A stretch of 25,586 nucleotides of DNA, from positions 1-25,586 of the IMG/VR virus record IMGVR_UViG_3300010151_000142; one strand, given 5' to 3'. Positions 1 through 21,300 of this stretch are shown in pieces; the first letter of the stretch is position 1, and each line of letters starts with the position of its first letter. Both the position numbers and the translations under genes were made by a program. Origin of the DNA: a virus. The notes beneath the pieces are model-generated. The model did not search any database. It was not told the origin of the DNA and saw nothing but the letters and a program-made list of their open reading frames with translations.

Positions 1-666
1 GTCGTCGGACGAGGAGGATCTCAGCCCGGCTGTGCATCTCCTTTGCACCCATCTTTCATAGGAAGAAATTCGGACTGTGCCAGAATTTATATAAGCCAAA
101 AGGCTAAAATTGATCAATATTTTAATCTTACAGGGGGAAATGTCGGCTCAGCTGTGGGAACTTCTGCCATTGCAATGAAGGCTGACGATATTCGCATAAT
201 GTCGAGACAAGGTGTGAAGATTGTCACGGGAGTGGACTCTCATAACTCAAAAGATGTTAATCTTGCCTCGACATATGGGATTGATCTGATTGCGGGCAAC
301 AATGATGACGACTTGCAATCGCTTGTCAAGGGTGAAAATCTTGTTGAGTTTCTGACGAAAGTGGTAGCAAATCTTAATGCGTTAAACGCAGTTGTGGAAC
401 AACTGTCTAGTGTTGTCAACACTATTAATACTGGGGTCATGAGCCACACGCATCAAGCCGCGCCCGGCCAAACTCTTCCTTCAGTTCAATATGTGGGCGC
501 ATCAGGCATTACTGCAGGCTTACGGAATCTCGTCACCGTTAATCATTCCCTCGGCGTTGCTAGGCTCAACAACATGGGCTTAGAGGTCACATATCTCGGC
601 ATTAATGGTGAAGGCACTCAAGGCGCTCCAAAATGTATTCTAAGTAGATTTAATAAAACGAATTAA
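1..666 (+). CDS. C-terminal part of a phage spike/hub-like structural protein (5' end outside window)
   Basis: Reading frame 1 is open from the first base to TAA at 664-666, so at least 221 residues are present and the true start lies upstream. The TTG at 43 is only an in-frame codon, since coding continues unbroken before it. The middle (about bases 160-235) reads AIAMKADDIRIMSRQGVKIV, an alternating-hydrophobicity strand pattern like the repeated strands of phage spike and VgrG-type proteins. Next comes GIDLIAGNN, then DLQSLVKGENLVEFL leading into a long helix, then an HxH (His-Thr-His, bases 445-453). I recall similar 'LVKGxNL ... HTH' segments in tail and baseplate proteins of marine T4-like phages, but could not check this. 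Its place upstream of gp25 and gp6/J matches the spike position in P2-type gene order. A virion structural role is fairly likely; the exact component is uncertain. Confidence 0.6.
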   Translation, partial: VVGRGGSQPGCASPLHPSFIGRNSDCARIYISQKAKIDQYFNLTGGNVGSAVGTSAIAMKADDIRIMSRQGVKIVTGVDSHNSKDVNLASTYGIDLIAGNNDDDLQSLVKGENLVEFLTKVVANLNALNAVVEQLSSVVNTINTGVMSHTHQAAPGQTLPSVQYVGASGITAGLRNLVTVNHSLGVARLNNMGLEVTYLGINGEGTQGAPKCILSRFNKTN

Positions 667-695: not shown

Positions 696-3600
696 ATGGC
701 AACTTATACATTTGACTCTGCTGGTGAAGCAGTAACATCCTCCGTTGGACTCGAAAATGCGCTGGCATCGAAAGGGACAATTGTCTCTTCTTTAGCCCAG
801 CTTGCGGACGAGTGCGCAACCGAAGAGGTTGAGGAACTTGAAGAAGAGGAAGACTGCTCGGGATGTCAACCTGACGATAATGCCATGGTTCCAATTTGGA
901 CCGACATGCAGCATGGGGAGTGCTATTTTAATGGAAAGGTCTGCGAGTATCAAACTGTAATCGCAACTGAATACACATCCACTGGCGGCGATGAACTCGG
1001 AGCTAGAATGACCGCCTCTATTTCGGGTGCTGCTGAAAAGCTTCTTGAATTTTATGATAAGGCCGAAGAGTTCGATTTGATGTGGACTCAAGGCGGCGGC
1101 GGAGCTACAAATGACACTCTTGAATATCTTCGTGAAAACATAACCCCACTCCAGTGGCATATGCCCCTTGAGGAATACTTGCCGATCAAAGTATTGCACG
1201 GCATTGATGCGGACATATTTGATGGTATTCCGGCAGCCCCTCCGCTCTCTCCCTCGGAATCGGAAACGATTATAAGTTCTGGCTCTGTCTCTATAAAGGC
1301 TGAAGAGCTTCCTCATATGATTCGAAGAGTGTCGAGGCTTTTGAGAATATATTCTGATTATTCAAAATTTTGGTTATTGGAAGATATTAAAGGCCCAGCC
1401 AGAATGGAACCAGTTGATTTAAAAGAAGAATCAGAAAACCTAAAGCTTTTTAAGGTGGAATTAAAAAAGTTTATCGAAGATAACGGATATTATCTTCCCC
1501 ACGCGATTCGCCTTGGCGGTGTCCAAGAAGTCGAAAATATTGAAATGGGCTTTGACGAAGGTTGGGTCATCTCTTATATTAGGGTGAATGGTCGTGGCTG
1601 TGAGCAAGTCGAACTTAAAAAGGGCTGGAAAACATTTCTTGAAAAAGAGCCTATTAATCTATCGAGAACGGTAGGGTATTTTGCAAAACTTGTCGAAATG
1701 GATCAGGACGCCCGAGCACGGACCCCACGGGACTGGAGAGAATTTGTTGAAGAGTATACCTATCCTCCAGTTGAGTACGCAGTGTATGAGGATGATTTTG
1801 ACGTAAATGAAGATCTTGGCGCTGCTGGCTGCGCCCTTGATAAGATGGGTGCAGCAATCGCCAACATGGCACAAAACGGACTCATGTCCGCTATAGAAAT
1901 CTTCTCAGGAGAATTAAGGAACAACATATGCCTCTCGCTCGACAATCAGATGATTGCTGAAGATGAATTTTTGAGAGATGCCGAGATTATAAGAAAAATT
2001 GCATCAACACAAGCTTTGGTTAAGCACGCCTATCAGGACAAAGTAATGGGCCAGATGAGAGAGATGGGCTCTGCGTTTATCAACCGTATTGATAATCTTG
2101 ATGATCTGTGGAATTTTACACTTTCTCCGCTCGGAAAGTGTGGGTTTGCCGCACTATTTCAGGCCGCGATGGGGTGTTTTATGGACGGTCTTGGTTTTGA
2201 CAAGGTTATTGAAAAACTTGTTAAGGCTGCTGTTAATGCGATGAATGAAGAGGTGATTGGTCGATTGATTGGATTCCTCCCGCCAGAGCTACAGGCAGAA
2301 ATCAAAGCAGCCGCCTTCCAAACAATCGACCCTGATCAAATGGCTCAATTCTTGGAAGATAATGCAGGCCAGACCAGCGATCAAATGGCGACACTACAGG
2401 CACAAATTGACGAGCTTCAAGCTCGCTATGATGAACTTGACGGGATGGAAGAAGATGCCTATGATACGACAAATTCGTTTGATGGCGGAACTTATGCAGA
2501 CAAGCATTACGAAAAGGGCGAGATCACGAACCTTCTCACTGATGACTCCGAGGGTTCTTTAAATTCACAAATGCTTGCCCTTAGCGGCTCGTTAGAGTCG
2601 TTTGAGAGCATGTCTGCTGACCTCGAAGAGTTTGGAGACACAACTGCCGCCGCATCTTGGCTGGGCCAAGGAATCACGGGAACATATAATGGACAAGTTT
2701 TTGATATTGTGATCGATACAGCTTCTACCGAAGCAACTGCAACCTCGGTAACTGCTGAAGATGTCGAGACGGCTCTTGCTGAATATGAAAACGGCCAAAC
2801 AAATCACGAGTTAGGCACAATAACAGATGAAGACCTCGCCGCTTTGCAGGAAACTTATGATTCACTGGCCAACCAATATGCAGAGTCTGAGTCAAATGTT
2901 GAAGTGGAAATTTCCGATGCAATCTTCGGCCTTCGCATTATCGTGTATGACCCGGACACTGACTTCTCTTCTATGGATTACGAGGCTGATCCAAGCTCAA
3001 CTGCAGTTACGCTTGGAGGTTCGCCGCTTGGGTATATTACTTCCTCTCCTTCTGACGTTAGTCTTGGAAGTGCAGAACAATTTTATTATAGACAAGTTGA
3101 CGGAAATGGTGGATACACTTATAACCAATATTATAATACTGATGGAAATTGGATTGAAATAGTTAGAGGAGAACTTGGCTCTGGAGAAATGGTCGGAGAC
3201 GGAGATACTCCAGTCGCTTCTGGGGAAGGATTTTTTGTAGACACTGGAGTTGACGCGGAAGCCTTTCTGGCCATCGTTGGCGAGATTGGTGAGATCCCTG
3301 ATGATGAAGCAGAGATTTTTTCAGCACTTATGGTTTCTGGGGGAGCTATAGACATAGGCGGAGGCTCACAGGGCCCGATTATGACTTTGGACGAAATTGA
3401 CCGAGCGGCCTATGGTCTTGAAATGACCTCTCATGCCGATTCATCTTATGAGATCGATTCCGCTGGCGTTGGCACAGGCCAAGCTACGGTCAATTTTGAT
3501 CAGTTTGTAGCAATCGACCCATCGACTACGCAGACAGAAATTGCCTTTGCACCAATCCCTCCAGATGCGGAGCATGCTGAAGCATTTGAGATATTCAAGA

Positions 3601-6600
3601 ATATTATCGCCGAATCTGTTATTGGCCCGCTGGTCGAAGTTTCGGTCTCTGATTCTGAAGCAATGACTGCTTTAGATTTGGTACTGACCACTCCCGGCGC
3701 AAACCCAAGCATTCATGTTAAGGAATATGGCTCAGGCACCGGAGGTTCGGGAAGTGAAGCCTCGACTTTGGCGCAAGAGTTAGAAGAATTGGAAATAGAG
3801 CTGGCAAATGCACAATCTTTAGCAGAAGAAGAAGGCGGCGAAATGCTGGCCGACAATATCGCCGAATTAGAAAACTCTATCGAACAAGTTCAAAACGAGA
3901 TCGATGCTGGCGTTGATGCGTCTGAGATATTCCTTGGCGGAGGAATGTCCATGGAAGGTGTCGGCGGCGCCGGTTCAATCGAAGGATTCCCAGACCCTTT
4001 TGGTGTCGGAGTCGCATTCGATGGCGAGGCGATGCTCGATGCAATGCTTGATGCTTTTAAGGCAGCAATTATTGAATATTACAAAGGAGCATATGAAGAG
4101 CTAATGGAGCAAATCGAAAAGCTCCCCGGTTATGAATTGGTGCAAAGGATTATGGCCTTCTTAGATTGTGGAGACAAGCCTCCGTTGTTTAGTCCGCCAC
4201 TTGACACTTGGCTAAAAGACTTAGATCTAAATTTCTGCCGCGAACTGGAGCCTATCGTCTGGCCAGAAATAAGAGAAATAAATTTTATTTTCCCTGACTT
4301 GAAGAAAATCTTAATTGAAGCCGCAAAAGCGACTTTACGAAGGCTCTTGCTACAAGCACTCACATGGATCATAATGAAGCTTCTAAGATTCTTAGAGTTC
4401 AGCCTTTGCGATGCGATGAAAAAGCTTGGCGCTATGACAGCAGATATGATGAAGAACGGATTCGACGCCTTTACAGCAGAGTTGACTGCGCTCCTTGGCT
4501 GCGGAGAAGACTTATCAGCCGAAGAACTCGAAGATGCCGTTGCCGATATTATGGAGTCTGCCGGATTTGCTGCAGCTAGCGTCTCAGCAGGTACGGAAGA
4601 AGAAGGGACGGTCATGTCTAGATGGATTCAGTCTATACAAGCCGTCATTACAGAAGAAGAGTTTCACGCTTGTATCAATGGAGAGGCATCAGAGACCACA
4701 TTGGGCACCTTGGCGGAAGTTACTAAAATCCAAACTCCAGAGTTGGCAGAAACGGGTTTGGGAACAAAATCTGGTATTAGAAAGTTTTTTAATGGCATTG
4801 GGGCACTTACAAACCTCCCGCTTTTCAACAAAAGATTTGATGAGGCTAAATTTACAAATGAAGAGTTTGAGTTTGATGGCAATGAGATGAAAACGTTTCT
4901 GTTGTCCAGCATGGATCGCCCAATGAATCCGCAATACTGCGAACCAGACAATTATACAGAATTTATTAGCATGAGAAAAACTTTGTTGAGAGACAAAGAT
5001 CCTGAAATGACTGACGAACAAATCGAAGAGCAGATTAATAATTATGAGGTTGTACTTGATGAGATGTTGGGAGAATTTGCAGAAGGCATGGCAGATCAAG
5101 ATGCAATGTTGGAAAATCTTTTGCCACCTTTCCTTAGCGAGAGCAACACATGCCCCGGAGTTACAGGCGATGGCCTTTTGGCCGCACCGTCAGACTCCCC
5201 CATGCAGTCCGCCAAAGCACAACAGCTTGCAGAAGATCTATTTGGAGCAATTCAGTCTTCTTACTATGAAGAATTAATGGGCCGACGCGGCTTTTTTAGT
5301 ATGATCTTGGCCAATGCTAACGGAACTTCTTTAAGGACACACTACTCTCTCTGGAACACTTTTGGCTGGATTTTGCCTATCCCCGGCGAAGGATTGCCAG
5401 AAACCGTCGCAACGTATTTGAAAATGGAGTTAATGAATCAAGACCACTTCACATTCTCGCCAGTTTCGACAGATGATGCTTTGTCAAAACTTAATGATCG
5501 AGAGCCAGATTGTGTGTTAAAATATTCTGACGAAGGGGCGACCCAACAGCAAGGATATTCTTTTGATGTAAATTATTGGAATTATATGTTTGAAGACGAC
5601 GGCTCAATTTCAACACAAGACAAATACCGCATTCAAGTGACAGACAGTCCATCTATCCCCCCAGAGTTGCAAGAATATTTAATCGCGCAGGCTGAAGCAG
5701 TTGGCAATCCGGTTCCGACTTTTGATGAAAATTATGGCACGGTTCTTGTTGACGGGGTTGGGACAGCAAGCATTGAGGAAGATGTCGAAGAAGTTTTGGA
5801 CGCTCTCGACGGATTCGATATGTCAGCAGGTTATAGCCGCCAAGCAGAGGCTTTTGCCGCATTGTTTTGTGAGTCATGGAACGATCTGTTTGGAGATAAT
5901 GCTTCGACATATATTCGCACAACCGTGAGAGAGCATGCAAGAAGAGACATTTTTAGCACAATAAACGAAAGATTCCTTGAGATGATGGCAATGGAGATTT
6001 CCTATCCAGAAATTCCGCATGACAAAACTTATTCTGCAGGTTCAGGAGAGGCAGCAGAAATGCCAGCATATTATTATGGTGACAAAGAGCCAGCAAGCGA
6101 GCTTTGGGGGGGAATGTTCTTTAAGTCTCCGAATTATGGCCGAATTAACGAGAACGAAGGCGGCCTCATCGATCTTGCATCAGAAGACGAAAGTCGGATA
6201 AATGCAGCAGACCAAGGCGCTTATTATGGTTTGGTCTCTGGTTCTCTTGCCTCTGCCCGTGGCCTTTCGTCAATCGCTGGAATGTTTATCCCGCCTTGGC
6301 ACGGCTGCGAGCCCGGTTTTCCAGATCCGATCAAATGGCAAGATATTGGAAATCTTGCATCAGGCGTTGGAGAAGACGATGAGCGTTTACAAAACAATCC
6401 TGCCTGTCGAAGAGAGCCTCCGTTTTCGCGAATCCACTCTAAGGTTAGTCGTGGAATGATTCATGCCACTATTAAATCTTATATTCGTCTTAATTTAGTG
6501 GAAATGTTGCTTAAGGGCTTAGGTCCGTTTAGCACGTTTAAAATTAACGCTCCAAATAATTTAGATCACGTTTTAAAATCCTATGCATCTTCCAAGATAG

Positions 6601-8624
6601 AGCAAACCCTTAAGGATGATAGTAGCCTAGTCCTCTCCCCCGGAGAGTTCTTTGAGCGCCTCGGAGGCTTGCCAGAAGATGAATTAAATTATTATTATGA
6701 ATTCATGGAGCAGGTTACCCAGATGACACTGGATCGGGTTGAAGCTGGAGACATAACACTGGAAGACCTTCCAGAAGCTGTTAAGGCTTCTGTTGAAAAT
6801 ATTCAAAAGCAGGTTAAAAAGTGGGTCGAACCAGTTCCGTTTGGACTGGATCAGACAGATCCAAGAATCGCAGCCTTAATAACCATTTGCTTGACTGCGC
6901 CCGGCTATGCACCGTTTATCCCAATTGTTGGAACTGTGATCAAAGCTTTCTTAAGAGAGAGAAAGACAACATGGAGAAATGCAATAAATGACAATCTTGA
7001 GGACGCAAGGACCATAATGAGATATGTCATAGAGGAGGAATTTGATGAAGTCGCCGATGGATTTTATGAGCTGATCGGAGAACCTGCACAAGACGACCTA
7101 AATAAACTCATTTACAATGTCTATAACAACAACTGGATTCCTACAATGGACGTTCCGTCAAATCTGTCCCTCACATCTGAAGAAGGCTCAGAAGAGGCCC
7201 CAGATGGAAGATTTGGAAATTTTTTGTTTAACGAAGAAGCACAGTTTGCGGGAAATCAGATTGAAGGTGAACGCGGGGCAGAAACAACAATTACTCCCGA
7301 TAGATTTGGCAAAGGATGGTTCGTCCTTGAAAAGTATGTTCGCATTACTGAAAAATACGAGGAAGATGACATATATGAGACCAGTGGTTATTACGAGTCT
7401 GGCGGAAGAACAGACCTTGACGCATATCTGGCAGAACAGGTTCAGTTCGCTATTGACTCTTATGAAGACACCGACGCTTTAGCGGCAGCATACGGCGAAT
7501 ATATTGGAAAAACAGTTGAGATTAGAAAAGTCGATGAAGGTGGCGTAAGGTCTTACGCCATTTACATTGATGGAGAATTGTGGCAGACTGCAGAAACAGA
7601 TGATCTGAGCCTAATTGGATATCAGCCATACGAAAGAGACTCAAGACTTTATGGAGTTGTGAATCTGAATACATGGCAAGAATTTCTTGCAACCCAATCC
7701 GATCTCGCAGATGAAACAATTCAGTCGCTTTTTGAAGGGTGGAATTGGGGTCTTAGGCTTTCATATGTTGCTCCAATGGAAACAGTGGAAGATTGGGACA
7801 ACCAACCAGCAGATATTTATGAGCCAATATTGAACAATGAAACCGGAAACATGGCAAGAGCCGAAGGTTTTACGACAGTAAACGCAGGCCGAGCTTCGGC
7901 CTGTTTAAAAGAGAAAGCGTATGGGGTCCCAGAAGATCCGGCATATTCTGGAGGTTCCTCTGGGACAGAAGAGACGCCAGAAGAGCCAATTGCATCCGAA
8001 ACTCAGTCAGCTAACGGAAGAGTTTCGCAGTCGAGCGCTGACTCAACTTATGCGACCGGAAAAAACTATATCATTCCTCTGATTTCAATTGAGAAACAAA
8101 TCGAGGGAACAACGAAAATGTCAGAATTCGACGCGGAAGATCATGAATATTGGTGCTTGTGGAATGAGTTGGTAAAATCTCCGCACCACAAAATGTTATT
8201 CGATTATTGTTTCCCTGTCAAAAGAATGTTGGGCCTTGCGACTATTTACAACATTCATGGGCTTCTGCCATCTGTTGGGATCCGAGACGGTGAATGGACA
8301 AAAGGCACAGGCGGCCCCGGAGGCCAGTTCGGTTATCGCATGTGGGATCAGGAAGTTCTTACAGACACCAGAAAATTGCTCAAAAAAATGTTTAATGCAA
8401 ACTATAATATTAAAGATGAAAGTTACAAAGATGAAGAAGAGTCTAGCGAAGGCGCTGGCGGAGGAGTCGGAAGAACCAGAGAGCGCCTTCAATTTGCAAA
8501 CAAAGAAAAACAATGGAGCCCATGGTGGCTCAGAAAGAGGTCACTCAATTGGGGCGTAAGCGCGAAGGGAGACTTTTGTGGAGATTCTGGAGAATATAAT
8601 AGTTCTGAAGAGGAGGACGAATAA
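696..8624 (+). CDS. Giant virion structural protein, 2642 residues, function unknown
   Basis: This uninterrupted frame starts at ATG 696, 29 bases after the previous stop, and would encode roughly 290 kDa. I do not recognise a named family. The N-terminus has an acidic run at residues 43-53 and cysteines at 40, 54, 57, 76 and 83, including CSGC. Coiled-coil-like stretches lie at about 562-588 (LQAQIDELQARYDELDGM) and 1023-1073 (LAQELEELEIELANAQ). Residues of about 640-1000 look beta-rich with many Gly, Ser and Asp. A basic, hydrophobic helical stretch lies at about 1212-1242, inside a region (about 1150-1330) with spaced cysteines. Residues 2059-2086 are strongly hydrophobic. The tail is acidic (SSEEEDE) and its codons carry the ribosome binding site of the next gene. 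Sitting between a spike-like gene and gp25 makes a baseplate or tail-tip component likely. A tape measure is possible but less likely, given the long beta-rich stretches and the position. Confidence 0.75.
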   Translation: MATYTFDSAGEAVTSSVGLENALASKGTIVSSLAQLADECATEEVEELEEEEDCSGCQPDDNAMVPIWTDMQHGECYFNGKVCEYQTVIATEYTSTGGDELGARMTASISGAAEKLLEFYDKAEEFDLMWTQGGGGATNDTLEYLRENITPLQWHMPLEEYLPIKVLHGIDADIFDGIPAAPPLSPSESETIISSGSVSIKAEELPHMIRRVSRLLRIYSDYSKFWLLEDIKGPARMEPVDLKEESENLKLFKVELKKFIEDNGYYLPHAIRLGGVQEVENIEMGFDEGWVISYIRVNGRGCEQVELKKGWKTFLEKEPINLSRTVGYFAKLVEMDQDARARTPRDWREFVEEYTYPPVEYAVYEDDFDVNEDLGAAGCALDKMGAAIANMAQNGLMSAIEIFSGELRNNICLSLDNQMIAEDEFLRDAEIIRKIASTQALVKHAYQDKVMGQMREMGSAFINRIDNLDDLWNFTLSPLGKCGFAALFQAAMGCFMDGLGFDKVIEKLVKAAVNAMNEEVIGRLIGFLPPELQAEIKAAAFQTIDPDQMAQFLEDNAGQTSDQMATLQAQIDELQARYDELDGMEEDAYDTTNSFDGGTYADKHYEKGEITNLLTDDSEGSLNSQMLALSGSLESFESMSADLEEFGDTTAAASWLGQGITGTYNGQVFDIVIDTASTEATATSVTAEDVETALAEYENGQTNHELGTITDEDLAALQETYDSLANQYAESESNVEVEISDAIFGLRIIVYDPDTDFSSMDYEADPSSTAVTLGGSPLGYITSSPSDVSLGSAEQFYYRQVDGNGGYTYNQYYNTDGNWIEIVRGELGSGEMVGDGDTPVASGEGFFVDTGVDAEAFLAIVGEIGEIPDDEAEIFSALMVSGGAIDIGGGSQGPIMTLDEIDRAAYGLEMTSHADSSYEIDSAGVGTGQATVNFDQFVAIDPSTTQTEIAFAPIPPDAEHAEAFEIFKNIIAESVIGPLVEVSVSDSEAMTALDLVLTTPGANPSIHVKEYGSGTGGSGSEASTLAQELEELEIELANAQSLAEEEGGEMLADNIAELENSIEQVQNEIDAGVDASEIFLGGGMSMEGVGGAGSIEGFPDPFGVGVAFDGEAMLDAMLDAFKAAIIEYYKGAYEELMEQIEKLPGYELVQRIMAFLDCGDKPPLFSPPLDTWLKDLDLNFCRELEPIVWPEIREINFIFPDLKKILIEAAKATLRRLLLQALTWIIMKLLRFLEFSLCDAMKKLGAMTADMMKNGFDAFTAELTALLGCGEDLSAEELEDAVADIMESAGFAAASVSAGTEEEGTVMSRWIQSIQAVITEEEFHACINGEASETTLGTLAEVTKIQTPELAETGLGTKSGIRKFFNGIGALTNLPLFNKRFDEAKFTNEEFEFDGNEMKTFLLSSMDRPMNPQYCEPDNYTEFISMRKTLLRDKDPEMTDEQIEEQINNYEVVLDEMLGEFAEGMADQDAMLENLLPPFLSESNTCPGVTGDGLLAAPSDSPMQSAKAQQLAEDLFGAIQSSYYEELMGRRGFFSMILANANGTSLRTHYSLWNTFGWILPIPGEGLPETVATYLKMELMNQDHFTFSPVSTDDALSKLNDREPDCVLKYSDEGATQQQGYSFDVNYWNYMFEDDGSISTQDKYRIQVTDSPSIPPELQEYLIAQAEAVGNPVPTFDENYGTVLVDGVGTASIEEDVEEVLDALDGFDMSAGYSRQAEAFAALFCESWNDLFGDNASTYIRTTVREHARRDIFSTINERFLEMMAMEISYPEIPHDKTYSAGSGEAAEMPAYYYGDKEPASELWGGMFFKSPNYGRINENEGGLIDLASEDESRINAADQGAYYGLVSGSLASARGLSSIAGMFIPPWHGCEPGFPDPIKWQDIGNLASGVGEDDERLQNNPACRREPPFSRIHSKVSRGMIHATIKSYIRLNLVEMLLKGLGPFSTFKINAPNNLDHVLKSYASSKIEQTLKDDSSLVLSPGEFFERLGGLPEDELNYYYEFMEQVTQMTLDRVEAGDITLEDLPEAVKASVENIQKQVKKWVEPVPFGLDQTDPRIAALITICLTAPGYAPFIPIVGTVIKAFLRERKTTWRNAINDNLEDARTIMRYVIEEEFDEVADGFYELIGEPAQDDLNKLIYNVYNNNWIPTMDVPSNLSLTSEEGSEEAPDGRFGNFLFNEEAQFAGNQIEGERGAETTITPDRFGKGWFVLEKYVRITEKYEEDDIYETSGYYESGGRTDLDAYLAEQVQFAIDSYEDTDALAAAYGEYIGKTVEIRKVDEGGVRSYAIYIDGELWQTAETDDLSLIGYQPYERDSRLYGVVNLNTWQEFLATQSDLADETIQSLFEGWNWGLRLSYVAPMETVEDWDNQPADIYEPILNNETGNMARAEGFTTVNAGRASACLKEKAYGVPEDPAYSGGSSGTEETPEEPIASETQSANGRVSQSSADSTYATGKNYIIPLISIEKQIEGTTKMSEFDAEDHEYWCLWNELVKSPHHKMLFDYCFPVKRMLGLATIYNIHGLLPSVGIRDGEWTKGTGGPGGQFGYRMWDQEVLTDTRKLLKKMFNANYNIKDESYKDEEESSEGAGGGVGRTRERLQFANKEKQWSPWWLRKRSLNWGVSAKGDFCGDSGEYNSSEEEDE
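7541..7560 (+). other. Perfect intragenic inverted repeat (hairpin)
   Basis: TGGCGTAA and TTACGCCA are perfectly complementary around the four-base loop GGTC, inside the 2642-residue gene. The following bases, TTTACATTG, make a poor T-tract, so this does not look like an effective intrinsic terminator. It may be an mRNA structure or chance. Confidence 0.4.
7885..7903 (+). other. Perfect intragenic inverted repeat (GC-rich hairpin)
   Basis: CAGGCCGA and TCGGCCTG form a perfect 8-bp stem around the loop GCT, followed by TTTAAAAG. It lies 325 bases downstream of the similar hairpin at 7541-7560, in the same coding frame. The stem is terminator-like but the T-run is only three bases, so an mRNA-structure role or coincidence is more likely than true termination. 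Confidence 0.4.
8611..8616 (+). promoter_or_regulatory. Strong Shine-Dalgarno AGGAGG for the gp25-like gene
   Basis: AGGAGG lies seven bases before ATG 8624, within the Glu-Glu codons of the preceding gene's acidic tail. With the TAATG stop/start overlap it supports translational coupling and fixes the gp25-like start. Confidence 0.85.
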
Positions 8625-9001
8625 TGGGAGGATATGGGCCAAAGATTCCGATAACGGTTTCTGCTGAAGACGGGTTTTCGCTTCTTGACTCAATCCGTGA
8701 GACTGTTAAGCAAAATATTAAAATGCTTTTGCTTACGGTGCCGGGCGAAAGAACTATGATGCCAAACTTCGGCGTCGGTCTGAAAACATACCTATTCGAA
8801 CAGAACACAGAACAGCTGAGAGAAGAAATTTCTTCAAAGATCAACGAGCAAATGAAAACTTATTTGCCGTTTGTAAAAATTATTTCAGTGGACTATTCAG
8901 ACATCGATTCAATGGATACGGATCTCAATAAGCTTAGGGTCGCCATTAAATATAGGATAAATAATGCTAAGGCAGCAGATATGCTAATATTAGAGCCATA
9001 A
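8624..9001 (+). CDS. 25: gp25-like baseplate wedge subunit (GPW/gp25 family)
   Basis: The 125-residue product matches the length of T4 gp25 (about 132) and P2 gpW. The diagnostic core is at residues 36-60: LLLTVPGERTMMPNFGVGLK followed by TYLFE, the pattern shared by gp25, gpW and the type VI secretion protein TssE. Flanking segments also fit: an N-terminal DGFSLLDSIRETVKQNI helix and a C-terminal strand pattern around KIISVDYSDID and LRVAIKYRI. In the family, this protein sits in the inner baseplate next to the gp6/J-like wedge protein and helps start sheath assembly. The start is supported by a strong AGGAGG and a one-base TAATG overlap with the giant gene upstream. The gp6/J-like gene follows after 46 bases, the usual W-J or 25-6 adjacency. 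Confidence 0.93.
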   Translation: MGGYGPKIPITVSAEDGFSLLDSIRETVKQNIKMLLLTVPGERTMMPNFGVGLKTYLFEQNTEQLREEISSKINEQMKTYLPFVKIISVDYSDIDSMDTDLNKLRVAIKYRINNAKAADMLILEP

Positions 9002-9047: not shown

Positions 9048-10856
9048 ATGCCAAGAAATATAAAACCACAAATCGACTATACTTCAAGAGATTATACTTC
9101 GATCAGGGACGAACTCCAAAGGTTCGCAAAAAGATACTATCCAGATACTTATAAGGATTTTAATGACGCCTCCTTTGGCTCATTAGTGCTGGACATGGTG
9201 TCCTATATTGGAGATCAACTTTCATTTTATATGGACTTTCAGGCTAATGAAAGTTTTATTTCAACTGCAATGCAGCGAGAAAATGTCCATAGACATGCAC
9301 AAGATTTGGGATGGAACGGAGTTTCTGCCCAGCCATCTGCTGCGGGAATGTGCGATTTTTATGTTAGAGTGCCGGGAAAGGCCACTGGCCTTGGGCCAGA
9401 TCTAAAATATATACCAACACTGTTGGCTAACTCAACAGTTAGCTTGGCAGGTCAATCATTTATTTTGACACAGGACGTGGACTTTTCAAACTCGGCTAAC
9501 GAGGTTGTGGTGGCCAACACAAATGCTGCAACGGGAGTTCCCACCTCCTATGCAATCAAGGCCACTGGTCCAATAATCTCTGGCCAATTTACGAGAACCA
9601 ATATCAGTACAGCCGGCTTTCAAAAATTCAAAAGAATAACAATTGACGATCCTGATCTCGCGGAAATAATCAGCGTCCAAGACAGCTCAGGGAATTACTA
9701 TTATCAGGTTGAATCATTGGATCAGAACACCATATATTTGCCAATTAAGAACCATCAGGCCGCTACAGACTCAGACCCGAAGAGAATACTTAGGCCCTTT
9801 GTGGTTCCAAGAAGATTCATCTTAAGAAGAAAAATAAACGGCAGATCTCAAGCAGCTAAATATGAACTTATATTTGGGTATGGCTCCTCTTCTCGTTCTA
9901 TTACTGTAGCAGAGCCCGGAAAGACGACAATGAATCTTTATGGCAAAGAATATATATCCGACACTAGTTTCGCACCCGAGCAGCTTTTAAAAACAGATAA
10001 GTTTGGCATATGTCCAGAAAATACTACGCTAACCATAGTATATAGAAAAAACGCCAATATATCTAATATAGGATTGTCCGCTCAAGGAAAGATTCTGAAT
10101 GCAAAGTATTATTTCAAAGAGACACAAAACCTGTCACCGGGAAAGATTGCAGCTGTAAAAGCATCAGTTGAGTGTACTAATAGTGAGCAGATTATTACTT
10201 CAAAACGCAGTGAAGGCATGTCTGACATAAAAGCACATGCTGCTTCTATTTTTTCAAGACAGAAGCGTGCAGTTACCATGCAAGACTATCAAGCTTTGGT
10301 TTATTATATGGAACCGAGATTTGGCTCCGTTTATAGGTGTTCGATTATGCAGGATTCCGACTCATTTAAGAGAAACTTAAACTTATATGTTCTATCAACA
10401 GATAATAAAGGCAAATTTATAACAACACCCGCCGTGACTAAGAATAATTTAAAAACTTGGATAAATGAGTTCAAAATGATCAATGATACAATTGATATAA
10501 TGGACGCCAAAGTGGTCAATTTAGCTGTAGAGTTTAATGTTAGTATCGCGCCCACAGAAGATAAAACAAAGGTTCACAGAAAGTGTGTGGCAGCAATATC
10601 CAGAATAATGAGTATAAAATATGAAATTGGTCAAGATTTTCCAATCGGCCAATGTTACCGCTCACTGGGTCAAGTCAACGGAGTTATAGACGTTAAATCG
10701 GTTAGAATCAAGCGTGCTATCGGAGCGAGGTATTCTGATATTAGATTCAATATTGAAGAAAATACCAGCGCAGACAGTCAGTTTCTTGTGGCCCCGAAGA
10801 ATGTGGCGTTCGAAATAAAGTATCCCAGCCTCGATATCACGGGAGTTATATCATAA
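9048..10856 (+). CDS. 6: gp6-like / baseplate J-like wedge protein
   Basis: The product has 602 residues, close to T4 gp6 (about 660). The N-terminus reads IDYTSRDYTSIRDELQRFAK, then YPDTYKDFNDASFGSLVLDM and SYIGDQLSFYMDFQANESF, the hallmark opening of gp6-like wedge proteins in T4-related phages. Around residues 395-425, FSRQKRAVTMQDYQALVYYM and EPRFGSVYRCSI fit the baseplate-J core. The C-terminal part has the expected alternation of helices and strands, ending at GVIDVKSVRIKR. In the family, gp6 dimers form the inner ring of the baseplate wedge and bind gp25 and gp7-type partners. The start follows a 46-base gap with only weak Shine-Dalgarno similarity (GGAAAC). The next gene starts after one intervening base, so the two are probably co-transcribed. 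Confidence 0.92.
   Translation: MPRNIKPQIDYTSRDYTSIRDELQRFAKRYYPDTYKDFNDASFGSLVLDMVSYIGDQLSFYMDFQANESFISTAMQRENVHRHAQDLGWNGVSAQPSAAGMCDFYVRVPGKATGLGPDLKYIPTLLANSTVSLAGQSFILTQDVDFSNSANEVVVANTNAATGVPTSYAIKATGPIISGQFTRTNISTAGFQKFKRITIDDPDLAEIISVQDSSGNYYYQVESLDQNTIYLPIKNHQAATDSDPKRILRPFVVPRRFILRRKINGRSQAAKYELIFGYGSSSRSITVAEPGKTTMNLYGKEYISDTSFAPEQLLKTDKFGICPENTTLTIVYRKNANISNIGLSAQGKILNAKYYFKETQNLSPGKIAAVKASVECTNSEQIITSKRSEGMSDIKAHAASIFSRQKRAVTMQDYQALVYYMEPRFGSVYRCSIMQDSDSFKRNLNLYVLSTDNKGKFITTPAVTKNNLKTWINEFKMINDTIDIMDAKVVNLAVEFNVSIAPTEDKTKVHRKCVAAISRIMSIKYEIGQDFPIGQCYRSLGQVNGVIDVKSVRIKRAIGARYSDIRFNIEENTSADSQFLVAPKNVAFEIKYPSLDITGVIS
9420..9443 (+). other. Two overlapping, mutually exclusive small hairpins
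   Basis: CTGTTG (9420-9425) can pair with CAACAG (9433-9438), or GCTAACT (9426-9432) can pair with AGTTAGC (9437-9443). The two share bases, so they cannot form together. This lies within the gp6/J-like coding sequence and is most likely incidental. Confidence 0.2.
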
Positions 10857-12350: not shown

Positions 12351-15300
12351 ATGAGCATTAAAGACCTTTTTAATAAAAAATACAAGGTTTCTCCTACAAA
12401 CAATGACAAACGTTCTGTAAAAGAAGATGCAGAATCCCCTTTGCGTGCAGTAGTTGTTCGGCGGGAACAAAAAAAAGTCAATTACAGAGTAGACTATACT
12501 TCTGCATCAAATTTTGCGAGATACGGCCTTGCAGAAGAGTATTATGTAAATGCCATAGACAGGATAACGAATCAGTTTCCTTATGATGGCTCGCTTTTAG
12601 AAAAAGAGCTATTTTTTGCCAATTCTCGCGGTCTTGACAAATACATATATGATGAGCTATATCCAAAAACTACTGGATATGTAATTCTGGGCAGCAACAA
12701 TATTGCTTGGTCTTCGAAAACAAAAGGCTATGGAGTCCCAGTACTCAAAGAGTACATTGAAGTCCGAGGCGGCCCTCATACTGCATCTGAAGGTATGGAC
12801 GGTAAACCGCTTAATACTACTTTTACTGGTTCAAATTATTACGACGAGGACATCTACAATGGCGGTGAGGATTTCGGTGGCTCTCGCACAACAAATTTAA
12901 AAACATATTTATCGGGCGGCGTGACTCTTGAGTTTTGGTTGAAGAAAGATGCATGGTCCACGGCCAACACAGAAAAAGAAGTAATTTTCGATCTATGGAA
13001 TGGTCATGAATCTTCAAGCGCCGACTACGGACGTTTAACTCTTGAATTAAGCGGAACTGCAACATCGGGAGAATCACCATTTGTTCTAACTTGTATGTCT
13101 GGCACTTCTGGCTTTTCGCGACAACACATCGGCTCAAGCATAACCACTTCTTCGATTACTGACTGGACACATGTCGCCGTATCTTTGCTAAATGAAGATG
13201 CTTCTATTAGAACAATGTTTTATGTCAACGGAGATCTTAATGAAAGTAAGACAGTTGGCTCTTCAGTGGACGACATCACGGGCTCTATAAATGCATATAT
13301 TGGGGCACTTAGAACGGCCCCTTCTGGAAATGTTTATGAAGCCGTAGATTCCACAGCAGCCAATCTTTGGGACGGTAGAGGGAGGTTGTCAGCTTCTCTT
13401 GATGAGTTTAGGTTTTGGAAGACGCAAAGAAGTTCAAAACAGATAGGCAGACATTGGTTCACTGATTATGCTGGCGGAACAAACCGCGACTCGGCAAACG
13501 CTACTTTAGGAGTCTATTACAAGTTCAACGAGGGGATAACTAATACCTCATCGATGGATTCTAACGTGCTTGACTATTCGGGCAGAATTTCAAATGGACT
13601 GTGGTACGGATATCTTGCAGGTTCAAGAAATTCAGGCTCGGCGATTGTTTCGGCCAGTGCTGGGACTGAATTTGAAGAGCCAATTATATATGAAAATAAT
13701 CAAGAAGTTATTAATTTGAGAAGTCGCTTGGCTGCGTCTGGTTCTTTGTGGGATGATGTAAACACAAGCAACATATATAACTCTTTTCCATATTGGATCG
13801 TAGAAGAGGACAGCCTATCCGATAAAAATCTTAGAATTTTCGCCCAAATTATGGGTAGCTACTTTGATACGGCGATGCTTCAGCTTGATTCCTTACCCAA
13901 GGTGCATAGCAAAGAATACGTTTCTGGAAGTGAAAAGCCAAGAGTGTTCGCAGACAGGCTGTTGGAAAGCGTAGGATTAGAAGTCCCAGACTTGTTTAAT
14001 GATGCTAATTTATTAAATTTAGTTTCCAGCAGAGACGAAGAGAGGAACTATGAACAGTCTATCCAAGAAGTAAAGAACTTAATATACGAAAACATATACA
14101 ACAATATCGACAGCATTTATAAATCCAAAGGAACAATGAGGGCCTTTAGGAACATGATGCACTGTTTTGGGTTTGACGAAGAATTAATAAACATAAACAT
14201 ATACTCGAACAACACGGCATACGAGTTTAAAGAAAGCTTTAACAATATTGCGGTTAAAAAGGTATATGCTGATTTTAACGATCCAGATCGTTATGATTCG
14301 ACCATATATCAACAAACATCAAGCCTTGAGCCAGACACCGTGAGTTATATATCTGGCACGAACCAAGTTGGGTATGAAACCGAGCTTGGAATGACTGCAC
14401 AGGCTGAAGTAATATTTCCGCATAAATATGAAAAAGCAGATCTTCTTTGGAGAGCTACTCCATTTTTGACGGCTTCTATTTTTGGAATGCACACTGCAAA
14501 CGGCGACAGCCCAACCGATTTTACATACGTCTCCCCAGACGTTGCAAACTTTCAGGTCTATGCCGTCCGCGACGAAGAGGAGTCTAAAGACATTAGATTT
14601 CTTCTATCTTCTTCTACTCCTTTCCCGATTTCGGAACTAACCTCTACCACATACAGAGAGACATATGATGGCGAACGATGGAATCTGTCTGTTCGTGTAA
14701 GACCTAATAAATATCCAATGACGCAGGATGTCACAGGCTCCAGCACCACCACCTATGCTGTTGAGTTCCATGGCGTGAGCATGATAAACGGAACTCCGTT
14801 AAACGAATTCTTGTTAACAGCTTCAATGTCACAGGCTGAAGGAGAAAATTTTCTTAAGTCTGGAAAACGACTTTATGGCGGCGCCCACAGACAGAACTTC
14901 ACTGCCTCGCTGGTAGACTACCAAAATAATGCTCACGATGCCCTCACAGACGTACACATAGCCTCAGTCAGATACTGGTCGACGTATTTAGAACAAGACA
15001 CCATCAACGCACACGCCCGAGACCCCGGTCGCTATGGAGTCAGAAACCCTTATAAGAGCGTGCATCTGACGGACAACATCCACATCCCTCAATCTGAAAT
15101 GCTTGCCCTCAATTGGGATTTTTCGCAGATCACGTCTTCTGACGACGGAGGCATAGATGGCCTCGGAGTCGCTGGCTCAAGCAATGCTGGGTTCTTCGTT
15201 AAGGATATTAGTTCTGGCTCTGCGACCAAACGCAGCCGCTGGGACTGGATTGGCGGCGTTACTGGTAATAAGCACTCTGCCCGCGCCAGCTATTATATCG

Positions 15301-18300
15301 CTGGCGATACTGGCAGCGTGAACACAAACTACATCTTCTCATATCGCCAAAATATGCCAGAAACCGTTCAAAGTTCGGATATGGTGAATATTTTGCGCGA
15401 CGATGATAATCAGTTTACGCGAGAATCCAGCCCGATCACTCACTATTTTTCTTTCGAGAAAAACATGTATAGAACAATTTCAGAAGAAATGCTAAACATG
15501 TTTGCGACAATTGTTGACTTTAATAATATTATTGGTGAGCCTGTAAACAGATATCGTCAAGAATACAAGAGCATGGAAAAGCTTAGAAGTCTATTCTTTG
15601 AAAAAATACAAAACGAGCCCAGTCTTGACAAATATGTTGATTTTTATAGATGGATCGACGGCGCGGTTTCGACCCTGCTTCTTCAGCTTGTTCCAGCTTC
15701 GGCAGAAACATCGGGCGAAATCAGGACGATGATTGAAAGTCACCTTCTTGAGAGAAACAAATATTGGACGAAGTTCCCGACTCTTGAGTCTAAGGCTGGT
15801 GATCCAACTGCTGGCATCCGTGGTGTTAATGAACTTCTTTATGATTGGGAACATGGACACAAGAATCCAGACGGAGCCGAGCGCGACAACGCACTTTATT
15901 GGAGAGACCGAGCACTAAGAGGAGACGCCCCGTTATCTTCTTCCAATGCAGATGTCAATTCCAACAAGGAAACGGTCAGGAACATCAGCGGAAAGCACCG
16001 CAACGACACACCTCCGACACTTTATGACACGGCGACAGCAACGACTTATCAGGGCTCAGCATATGCGATTGACCGTTTCACCAAGCCATATCGTTTAGCA
16101 ACACACGAATCAAGAGAGATCAAAGGCGGCGTAAACTTCCCCAGAAACAAGAAGGCCAACTTGGTCTATGATGCGGTTCGTCCACACGGACCCCGTTCAG
16201 ATGGTGAGCAGGCGAACATCCCATTAAATGTTATGCTCGCACAAAGCTCGTCTGTCGAGGCAATGCCAGAGATCAGCGATAGAATTGATCCATTAATGAA
16301 GGACTCCGACGCAGTTGTTGGTCCGCTTAAAACACCAGCGGTGAATGAGAAGAGAAGATTTAACTTTGAAGTTATGCAAGGTCGTGACTTCTGTGTTGAT
16401 TATGCAGGCATTGCCAAAGATAATCTTTTGTTCCCATTTAATATTCACAGTTCTTCTGCCACAGGCGGATATAATGAGGAAATCACCTGCGGCTTTTATC
16501 AAGGCGCCGAACTGACGAACCTCCACCACGACACATATGGCGAGGGTCATGAAGTTCCAATGCAGGGCCCATTCACTGAAAAGTGGGTTGGTGGTCACCA
16601 ATCCCGCCACGTTGAACTTAATGTCGGAAGCGACAACCAAATGTCCCGTCCAGAAGCCTTTAGAATCGTTACTGGAGATTGTAAGACAGGTGGGTTCATT
16701 GGAATCGTCGGAGCCGATTACCCGTTCCCAGAGGGCGACTGTGAGGTATCTGGGGGCTTCCCCGTTAAGAAACATCCAAGGGCATCCATGTATCGCTCTG
16801 TCACAGCCAAGCGTCCTGTCAATATCGCGTATATTAAGCAAACAGGATCTGCCAAGGGTGTCACAAGCATCGGAAACTATGAATATATTTATCAAGCTCT
16901 TCAGGCCAGTTCCCGCGCCACCCAGCGCCGAGCCTTTGTTAAGACAGGGGGTGCCGCTCTGTTTATCTCTGCGTCTGCATGGGTTTCTGGAGCCGTAGAT
17001 TACACCAGACTTGATCAAGTTTCTAACACATCCAAGCACGTTTTTGTTGAAAGGTTCTCCGCCCCCGGCGGCCCTGAAACTTCTGGCGATGCGAACGGCG
17101 GCTTCGGCCTCGATGCCGTCTCTGGCGAATATTCCCCATATAACTCTCTGAACAATCGGAACTTGTTGGTTCGTTCGACTATGCGAGAACTGTTCAGAGC
17201 ACACACAAACGCTTTCGGATATTCTGGTTACACCAACTCCCTCGTTACAGAGGTTGAGGCAAACGAGTCAGACTATTCTGGAAGAGCAAATTATCATAAG
17301 ATCCACCGAAACAACCTCAACAGAATGACCCAGCAGGAAAGCTATTCTCCTGTTTATAGTGGTTCGGTGCTGATCAACAAGAAACTTGTTCACTTCCCGA
17401 ACACCGATCTCGACAGCGGCTCTTGTTTCGCACTGGCCTCATATGATGTCGTTGATTCTGAGATTCTTACTAATTCTGATACTTTCATGACAAAGGTTTG
17501 GTCGGCCTATTCAGGTTCGGGCTTCTCTTTTACGGGCTGGCTCAAGCCTCAAGATACGGCAATTCCTGACGGCGCAATGACTATTTTCGCAGCAGGAAAG
17601 GCGAACTCTAATCCCGTAATGTGGGCCGAGGTGGATCGTAATCCAAACACTGCTGACGGAATTGAGCGCGTGTTGTTTGGCCTTTCCTCCACAACAAACG
17701 GACAAGGAGCAAATGGCGAAACAATGTGGGAAGTCAAGGCATCTTCTTCCTTTTTGAATGACTGGGCTCATGTTGCGATCACATGGACATCCCAGCCCAG
17801 CGGCGCTCTTGGTTCTTCAAATCAAGTTGAAGGCGAAGCAATGGAGCGTGCTGTTACGATTTACATTAACGGTGTCTCTGCATCAAGTGAATTCACTGTG
17901 ACTCGCCCATTCGCAACAAGAAATTGCTATTTATCGACTGCCAGCATGACCTCAAAGCTAAATTATAAGGCTTTTGGTAATCTCGATTACGCAGGCCGCC
18001 GGATGTTTACGATTGGTGGATATCACACAGACGCAAGCAACATGTGGTCTGGCTCTATGGATGAGTTAACCTTCTGGAAGATTCCGCTTGACGCAAATCA
18101 GGTTACTGAGATTTACAACAACGGTATCCCTTGTGACATAACTGCTTCAAGCCTTTATTCCGCAACTGGCTCAAACATGTTAGAGTGGATTAGATTTGAG
18201 CCTCAAATTGGCCAATGTGACCTCACCATCGACCCGGCAAACCCCGGCATTTATTCAGAGGGCGGCAACTTCTTAAATAATTTTACTGGAACAAAGTTCT

Positions 18301-21300
18301 TCCCAGTTTGTGTATCGGCCAGTCTCAACAATGGCTACACTGCCTCGGCAGAAGTTCAGGGATGCACACGACAGTTCGATTATATGCATCGCTCGTTCTC
18401 GTACATCACCGCATCTGTTCAGGATAATTATTATGTTTCTCACACAATTCCGAGAGCAGAGCACCAATATTCATGGTTGACTGCCTCACTTCTGCCAAAT
18501 ACAGAAAAGTTCCTTGGGTTTGCGCCAGCAGACGGAATGGTCACGAACTCATCAGGATATGTTCCTGCGCTCGATTTTGTTTCTTCAAGTGAAGCGGGAA
18601 CGCACTATCCCGGCTCTAACGTGGCGAACGGAAGAATCTTCGGGAACGATCATGGCGAAGGCAAGGCAGGTCACCTCCCGACTGACTTTGTTGGGATGAA
18701 CCATAATATTTATGAACCAATTTCTTCCAGTGCAAACACTGTTGGATATGACTCCATGACCCTCATCGACCATGTGGGGGGCAATGTTGCTGGTTATAAC
18801 AATTATCTTAATGTGTCGCACGTTGTTCGAAACACTTTTGGCGGAGAAAACGTTTTTAGTTCTGGCTCCGCTGGCGGTGACCGAAACGCAATGGTGTTTA
18901 ATGGACTGCTTTTGCACAGAAACGGTCCATATGGATATCCAAGTTGGAAACAAATTCGAACTGGAGAACATGCGGTCGCAAGATATAACAGAAGAAATAA
19001 TATTATTTCGACTTATGAGGCTCCCACCGATTACACAACAGACGATGGAAGAGTGTTCACCGACACAATTCGACCGAGTTCCTTTGTAAATTATGAAGAG
19101 CCGCCAGTTGGTTCATCACAATATCCAATTCTTGCCTCGCTCATGGGAAACATTATTCAAACAACGTATGGCACAAACTTGGTCTACTTTAATAATGCGA
19201 CCCTTAATGAGAGGTTGGGGCTTTCGATAACAGATGACATGGAGAATCAGTCTTACACCAATCTTATCGCGATGTATGGTGCCGGCCCTTCAACATTCCA
19301 GTCCTCTATGCCTGCTTATCATAATTACGGCCTCGTTTATCGCGAACAGGTCTATCCAAAAGACCGTTACGCCTTCACTTCTGGAGTCCGCAAAAGAGAA
19401 AACTTTTATGTTAGCTTCTGGACCCCTCTTGATGAAGATCGTCGACAGACACACAGGATAGATTCACAGGGCCAAACGACAAGAACAGGAAGTATTTGGG
19501 GCATGGATGGCCCATCAGACACTTATTGGAACTCAATGCGACTGCCAAGAGAATATGACGGTGGTTCCACCACCACATATTTGGCAGGAGAGATTTATTC
19601 GACATACAGAAACTCCAGCGGCTCAGGAGAGCTTCAAGATATAACAAAGCAGCTTTGGGGCAATTACGATTCTGCTGGAACGCAATACACCTATAAAAGA
19701 GGCGGCCCACTTTATTATTATTTCAACACACATTACACAGCCTCTGCCAATTTATCTCCCTCAAACGGCTTCAGCGAAGCACAATTAGAAAAGTGGGGCT
19801 TTAAATACACCGACACGTCACTGGCGATCACTCCTATCTTTGGTGGATACACAAAATTTGAAGCACACATTCAAGCTGGCCGCGCACCATTTTATAAATC
19901 ATATGATGAATATGTCCAAGACCTTCGCTTGAGGGCAAAGGACCACACAATTGTTCCAGAGTTTAGAATTAGCGAACATATGCCTTTTTATATACTCGAA
20001 AACGGTGGGTATTTTATCGCAGAAAATTCTGGCTCTTTGAGCTTGACTGGTTCGGCTATTTCGTCCAGCACTGAAGATGGCTTCTATCGAACTTATGCTC
20101 ATGCTGAGTTTATGAGACACTTCGACAAGATCGAGTCAGATCACGATTTCGACGGCGGAGTCCGAGGTTTAACCCTTAAATGCAAGGCCCAAATGAAGTT
20201 GTTGCCTTATGATGGCTTCTTTCCAATGGACAGGACCATTCAACTTGCGAGCTTATTTTCGCAGTCTTATGGATCAAATATAATAGACTCACCACAGTTC
20301 AGGTCTTCGTCGACCACTTTTGCTGAATTTGGCGCAGCCGAACATGCTCAGGCCCAGAAAGACAGATGGTCGATTTGGTCTCGCCCGTTCATGGCTCCCG
20401 GCATTCTATATAATACGATCAAGTCTGGGATGGCAGTCGATTATCCGATCATGACGGGCTCTTGGAACAAAAAGTTTAAAGGGATGTCAGGTGATTTTAA
20501 AATTTCTGCCTCTTACGAATGGCCTCACACCGGCAGCACTTTCCAAATACACAGCATCAATTTTATGGAAAAATACGATGCAGCAGTTGGATATCGCTAT
20601 AACATGGGAACTTCAGACAATATCACTGGCTCTTTCATATCGCGTGGTTACGGATCTTATGACTTAACTGCGATATCTGGCGCAGTTGTTCAGATGGATA
20701 ATTATAACATGAGGCTCCCGTTTGAAGCAATTATCGATCCATCTGAATATGTCAGGGGTCTGCCAATCGCAGATTGCGGGCACACATCCTCGCAACCGGG
20801 ATTTGGTGTTCAGGACGGTAACCCATTCGCAAGAAGGGGAATGCTCGGAGCGTCCAGTAAGCCACTTTATAAAATGGCAATGTCAAACTTCTTGGCAAAT
20901 GTCCCAGAGTTCTTTCTTAATGGCAAAAACTTTTCAACGATCACTTCGACAACGGAAGATAAGTTTTTGGCAGCCAAGCCCGGCAAGGTTTACGGAGCAC
21001 TCGTTAGATTAAGAAAATCAGTCGATACAGCTTCCACTGCTTCGCATGGATTCCATCCAGATTCGCTGGATAGAATGATGGCAGTTAATCCAAGCAACAC
21101 GGAAGAATGGGTTCCAGAACAGTCAAAAGAAGTTGTTCCTTGGACAGAGCACAAGGAAACGATGACAATGTATAGTCGTCCCACTGCTTTTGGACCTGCT
21201 CATGGCTGGGGCTCCTTCGCTGGCTATAACACTCCATTCACACCATCATATTATGATGGCGAAGGTTGGGCCGTGCTTTATTGGACCCCGCCAACAGGCT

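Follow-up and report, generated by a model that had tools for sequence, protein, structure and literature searches.

The giant gene lying directly before gp25 in the window (the whole stretch of 25,586 nucleotides analysed here) belongs to a protein family that fills the same slot in related phages. This family is without a named relative in the resources searched and without a PDB fold match, and its setting in a baseplate locus is already known. The reading that we favour, with slightly better than even confidence, is that the giant protein is a clade-specific brace of the contractile-tail baseplate, situated between hub and wedges and stiffened by disulfides.

The giant gene and its neighbours

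The giant gene (696..8624; all window features given here are on the + strand) is a single ATG-started ORF encoding 2,642 aa, with exact coordinates. Its 3' end is overlapped by 1 nt by the baseplate wedge subunit gp25 (8624..9001; Pfam GPW_gp25, 2.4e-17; PHROG 261, 1.9e-21), followed by a gp6-like baseplate wedge subunit (9048..10856; PHROG 219, 1.2e-18; full-length tblastn matches to immuto, Mel-JY01 and LR756508), a 494-aa gene (g494) and a 3,595-aa gene (g3595). The IMG/VR record (25,586 bp) is classed as linear and is thus probably a fragment. The upstream neighbour (1..666) is truncated by the contig end, and its homologues in relatives (~296-340 aa) are found directly 5' of the giant. 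The earlier note had called it spike-like; the gene is indeed conserved in the clade, but it matched no known family, spike families included, so the name reflects position only and we keep 'spike' as a label.

Searches of Pfam, PHROGs, NCBIfam and PDB sequences returned no family match for the giant, and none was found among 50,697 phage records or in a single-sequence IMG/VR search (query P0001). The three longest giants were also compared with Pfam to identify inserts, without any match, and our literature search recovered no paper on this gene. The earlier description of one giant ORF of 2,642 aa, lacking a recognisable family and placed directly before gp25, thus holds, and the result that would have spoken against it, similarity by profile to a family of tape measures, hubs or fibres, was looked for and not found.

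The 3,595-aa gene (12351-23138), 3' of gp6 and g494, is a second giant with clade counterparts of about 2,960-4,093 aa. Its profile columns about 442-624 are homologous to a protein of 1,265-1,400 aa of other Far-T4 phages (hhalign, 98.6%), and it carries putative LamG-like segments, as judged by eye. Profiles of g494, 'spike' and g3595 were compared with single T4 proteins as candidates for gp7 or gp8 and gave no match; therefore we withheld those names. In relatives, the gene 5' of 'spike' (L047:1200-2423) contains a Peptidase M23 domain (Pfam, 2.1e-21) and perhaps encodes a tail-associated wall-cutting enzyme.

A protein family in the same slot of other phages

The family was revealed by searches baited with alignments of gp6 and with P0002, the 3,595-aa protein; more than 200 loci were recovered. 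In the clade resembling the window, the slot before gp25 holds a very large ORF, and 79 out of 91 slot ORFs were linked by BLAST. The window giant aligned with several of them in collinear blocks (BLAST E 1e-19 to 1e-35), the slot homologues being about 20-29% identical in sequence. Since homologous ORFs occupy the identical slot in many other contigs, a chance ORF is excluded. The window giant shows both collinear homology and the position between the upstream gene and gp25 that characterise the family; its membership rests independently on BLAST, because the profiles of the six domains described below (D1-D6) come from alignments that contain the window.

We then considered 106 loci with both the upstream gene and gp25, from which most duplicates had been removed. 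A family member filled the slot in 103 of them, a count that is inflated because some loci were fetched with the giant as query; among the loci obtained from the gp6 bait or the P0002 bait alone the pattern was unchanged, and the slot was filled in nearly all. The protein was encoded by one ORF in 97 loci (1,654-2,998 aa, median 2,162) and split over 2-3 ORFs in six, two of which (L050 and L139) are one contig. No member was recognised in L076, which is an outgroup contig, or in L145 (contig identical to L059) and L051, which contained ORFs (about 1,290 and 930 aa, respectively) that were not recognised. The longest slot ORF (L044:3-9518) has at least 3,171 aa, is open at the contig end and matches D2, D4 and D6.

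A scan of IMG/VR with the family alignment identified 394 related stretches. Only one was found across 84,980 prokaryote species: a family member (L328:125-2992) on a short, 4.6-kb Flavobacteriales MAG contig (DTRI01000081), which is probably a binned phage contig. The distant members L029 and L016 gave no tblastn match in the phage records. Synteny searching, which the earlier note had proposed, was therefore positive, with giants directly 5' of gp25 in other phages; the accompanying idea that the gene is inserted is valid only in comparison with other Far-T4 phages, since the gene is standard within its own clade.

Judged from its baseplate genes and from the capsids of relatives, the window phage belongs to an uncultured marine Far-T4 clade. 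A T4-type capsid gene (PF07068) was present in all 8 large relatives, while the window contig carries no capsid gene. The capsid protein of one relative was compared, and its nearest matches were LR756508, Flavobacterium phage immuto, Microcystis phage Mel-JY01 and RM378, which are Far-T4 phages as described in PMC4360716. Marine Far-T4 phages have been linked to Bacteroidetes (PMC7198788); the Flavobacteriales MAG contig and immuto agree with this host link, as a weak hint. In G001, a related 203-kb contig, three consecutive genes just 5' of the baseplate genes (L243:1327-4072) match the nucleotide-sugar epimerase family PHROG 540, and they perhaps serve glycan synthesis.

That the giant serves as an assembly factor, or is carried inside the virion and then ejected into the envelope of the host, appears improbable to us. 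The cysteines described below would suit a protein ending in the periplasm, but the position next to gp25 is fixed and no enzymatic or chaperone family was matched in Pfam, PHROGs or NCBIfam.

Domain architecture and natural splits

Six domains and a lineage-specific insert were delimited in the window giant. D1 (aa 50-545; 843..2330) was recovered by profile matches in relatives and stands as a separate gene in L014 and L016, and partly in L050; the first part of its counterpart in the relative L019 is a confident alpha/beta domain in the AlphaFold2 model. It is followed by an acidic insert (aa 551-1097; 2346..3986), identified from its composition and from an occupancy of 5-19% in an alignment of 33 full-length relatives. 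D2 (aa 1100-1600; 3993..5495) is helical, according to profile matches, alignment A3 and predicted helices. It includes the counterpart of a 56-residue predicted hydrophobic helix (L019 730-785; window about aa 1201-1256; 4296..4463), located by model, hydropathy and mapping, and the counterpart of a predicted helical hairpin whose cysteine pair changes rungs in relatives (L019 927-973; 4947..5093), located by model and Cys columns. D3 (aa 1601-1860; 5496..6275), D4 (aa 1861-2160; 6276..7175), the variable D5 (aa 2161-2450; 7176..8045) and D6 (aa 2451-2642; 8046..8621) were all recognised by profile. D4, further supported by alignment A4, contains C1871 and C1904, which correspond to covarying Cys columns 1450/1486, and D6 is a separate gene in L014, L017, L028, L031, L033 and L039.

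The natural splits thus fall between D1 and D2 (L014, L016, L050) or before D6 (the six loci just listed), and the junctions are 4-nt overlaps or short gaps, like those of ordinary operons. As the split sites coincide with domain borders, the giant behaves as a fusion of at most three units. The earlier note had expected a multi-domain virion protein, perhaps a baseplate scaffold or tail-tip shell, and this is partly supported: the view of a protein of many domains stood, from a family not previously known that is syntenic with baseplate genes and was not seen in the other T4-type phages examined. Presence in the virion is suggested by that synteny alone, and no observation pointed specifically to a tail-tip shell. 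The spaced cysteines and hydrophobic segments that it had pointed out are there (the latter at aa 1217-1235 and 2057-2082, by hydropathy), as is the acidic middle (551-1097). What goes beyond the note is that the protein is conserved throughout a family, that cysteines are conserved and some of them covary in pairs, and that split versions occur naturally.

A reading of the giant as a membrane protein was dropped, despite the hydrophobic D2 helix, since Foldseek transporter matches appeared only at E above 1. The highest 19-residue Kyte-Doolittle mean was 1.1-2.6 across members, and the peak was not always in D2.

The very divergent sequence and the lineage-specific inserts could also fit a receptor-binding or adhesin-like protein on the baseplate, whose variable insert contacts the host. 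We regard this as rather unlikely, given that variability is spread beyond one end, that the gene stays before gp25, away from the downstream fibre region, and that no fibre family was matched in Pfam or PHROGs, including the Pfam search with the three longest giants.

Great length, helices and hydrophobic segments are features that the giant would share with a tape-measure protein, but this identity is very improbable: the protein has many conserved cysteines and domains of mixed alpha/beta type, it is naturally split into 2-3 genes in some loci, and no profile match was obtained in Pfam or PHROGs. In addition, the gene order in G001 is sheath, tube (PHROG 4542), hub (PHROG 150) and a 912-aa protein (L247:4365-7103, corresponding to G001 144365-147103) that is Cys-free, Ala/Leu-rich and without PHROG match. 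This 912-aa gene is likely the tape measure of the clade, as it occupies the place expected after the tube, which makes the giant an unlikely candidate.

Predicted structure

The AlphaFold2 target was the relative L019 (2,097 aa), modelled as two overlapping 1,200-aa segments in place of the window protein itself. The N-terminal segment had an overall pLDDT of 68 and a pTM of 0.63, with a good alpha/beta domain at residues about 40-360 (block pLDDT mostly 80-95), and the C-terminal segment was predicted as a confident multi-domain structure (pLDDT 82, pTM 0.80). Foldseek searches with both segments found no PDB match below E 0.5 (best E 0.59); the queries were whole 1,200-aa models, from which small shared domains can escape. 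Among the predicted viral structures of BFVD, the C-terminal model matched UniProt A0A516M7H3 (E 9.5e-33, TM 0.53/0.57) and A0A1B1IUZ9 (E 9e-8, TM 0.26/0.22), neither of which has a name or function recorded in the BFVD table; the former is probably a member of the slot family, according to the model comparison. PDB profile matches obtained with A7, A8 and A4 were weak and unrelated (spectrin, 0.017; pyocin immunity protein, 0.031) and were rejected.

Conserved cysteines

Out of 24 Cys-consensus columns, 19 were conserved at 90% or more (Trp 38%, Gly 27%), and the window giant retains all 19 near-invariant cysteines. No conserved Cys column was found in gp25, gp6, g494 or 'spike', so conserved cysteines are not general to these virions.

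The best-supported pairing lies in the predicted helical hairpin of D2. Cysteines 934+954 (L019 numbering) were present in 52 of 98 sequences and 938+950 in 39, both pairs together in none; the exceptions were 5 sequences with neither pair and 2 with a mixed state. Changes were counted on a tree built without the hairpin region: 934+954 changed jointly in about 10 out of 10 independent comparisons (sign test, p about 0.002) and 938+950 in 11 out of 13 (p about 0.001), and never in the opposite direction for either pair. The two rungs are thus mutually exclusive, with about ten independent switches, and this pattern suggests a disulfide able to occupy either of two neighbouring rungs. The pairs 375-799, 475-759 and 1450-1486 also covary, but on only 2-3 independent changes each, so the hairpin pair is the only phylogenetically well-supported one. 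The window has neither the hairpin pair nor the 475/759 pair; it keeps 375/799 (C379, C1269) and 1450/1486.

The N-terminal cluster C40, C54, C57 and C83 (813..944), with a CxxC motif and near-invariant columns L019 21, 33, 36 and 61, may bind metal. Extending this to the whole protein, the cysteines of a baseplate protein otherwise as we propose could bind zinc or an iron-sulfur centre and form no disulfides. We give this a low chance, though the highest among the alternatives to our favoured reading: besides the CxxC with its two further near-invariant cysteines, virion assembly takes place in the reducing cytoplasm, but the hairpin cysteines vary strictly pairwise and hop between rungs, as expected of a bond between two partners more than of a site with four ligands. 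The odd number of invariant cysteines was counted against the disulfide reading.

Proposed role and significance

According to the baseplate-brace reading, the giant is encoded together with the upstream 'spike' and gp25/gp6, and its product would most likely act as a large brace fitted between the hub and the wedges, in which the helical parts would form the core and the variable insert would be exposed. The fixed cysteines would most likely be paired largely as intramolecular disulfides, stiffening the protein after the virion exits the reducing cytoplasm, and the N-terminal CxxC cluster may hold metal instead. A bolder version, to which we give only about one chance in a handful, is that the giant is a brace of 1,650-3,000 residues with a new fold, stapled by some nine or ten disulfides that form once the virion has reached oxic seawater. 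It would be a redox lock in one protein, whose oxidation state may set the time of tail firing.

If the giant is part of the baseplate, many uncultured ocean phages would have an extra conserved component two to three times larger than those of T4, and a giant without PDB match would bring a new architectural element to contractile baseplates. From the Cys pattern one would predict that one baseplate protein is stapled by disulfides and that its neighbours are Cys-poor. The gene can also mark this phage clade, and its product, having a confident model and no known fold, is a folding target.

Comparison with known systems

In the other Far-T4 phages of our set (L002-L004, L071-L083), gp25 is immediately preceded by a gene of 119-223 aa, in contrast to the giant, and the family profiles recognised no member there. 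Immuto, Mel-JY01 and LR756508 have the gp25-gp6 order in common with the window but no giant before gp25, and the stretches of RM378 that were read contain no gene of its size.

The proteins of the T4 baseplate, the best-known contractile one, range from roughly 130 to 1,030 residues. The T4 wedge and hub proteins (gp5, gp6, gp7, gp8, gp10, gp27, gp53) share with the giant the class of genomic neighbourhood and the presumed location, but no profile similarity to them was found, and the L019 models had no fold match in the PDB. Comparison by hhalign of the family profile with the baseplate genes of T4 and the Far-T4 outgroup gave nothing credible, single-sequence targets limiting the sensitivity; the best match (57%, about 40 columns, among ~1,400 comparisons) was treated as chance.

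A contractile-tail phage to which disulfides give stability, also in the baseplate, has a precedent in Agrobacterium phage Milano, without any claim of sequence relation: its tail, neck and baseplate are held by disulfides, and many of its virion proteins are rich in cysteines, which link subunits (PMC10811340, PMC10491603). The window clade, by contrast, has its conserved cysteines gathered in a single giant, beside neighbours that have none.
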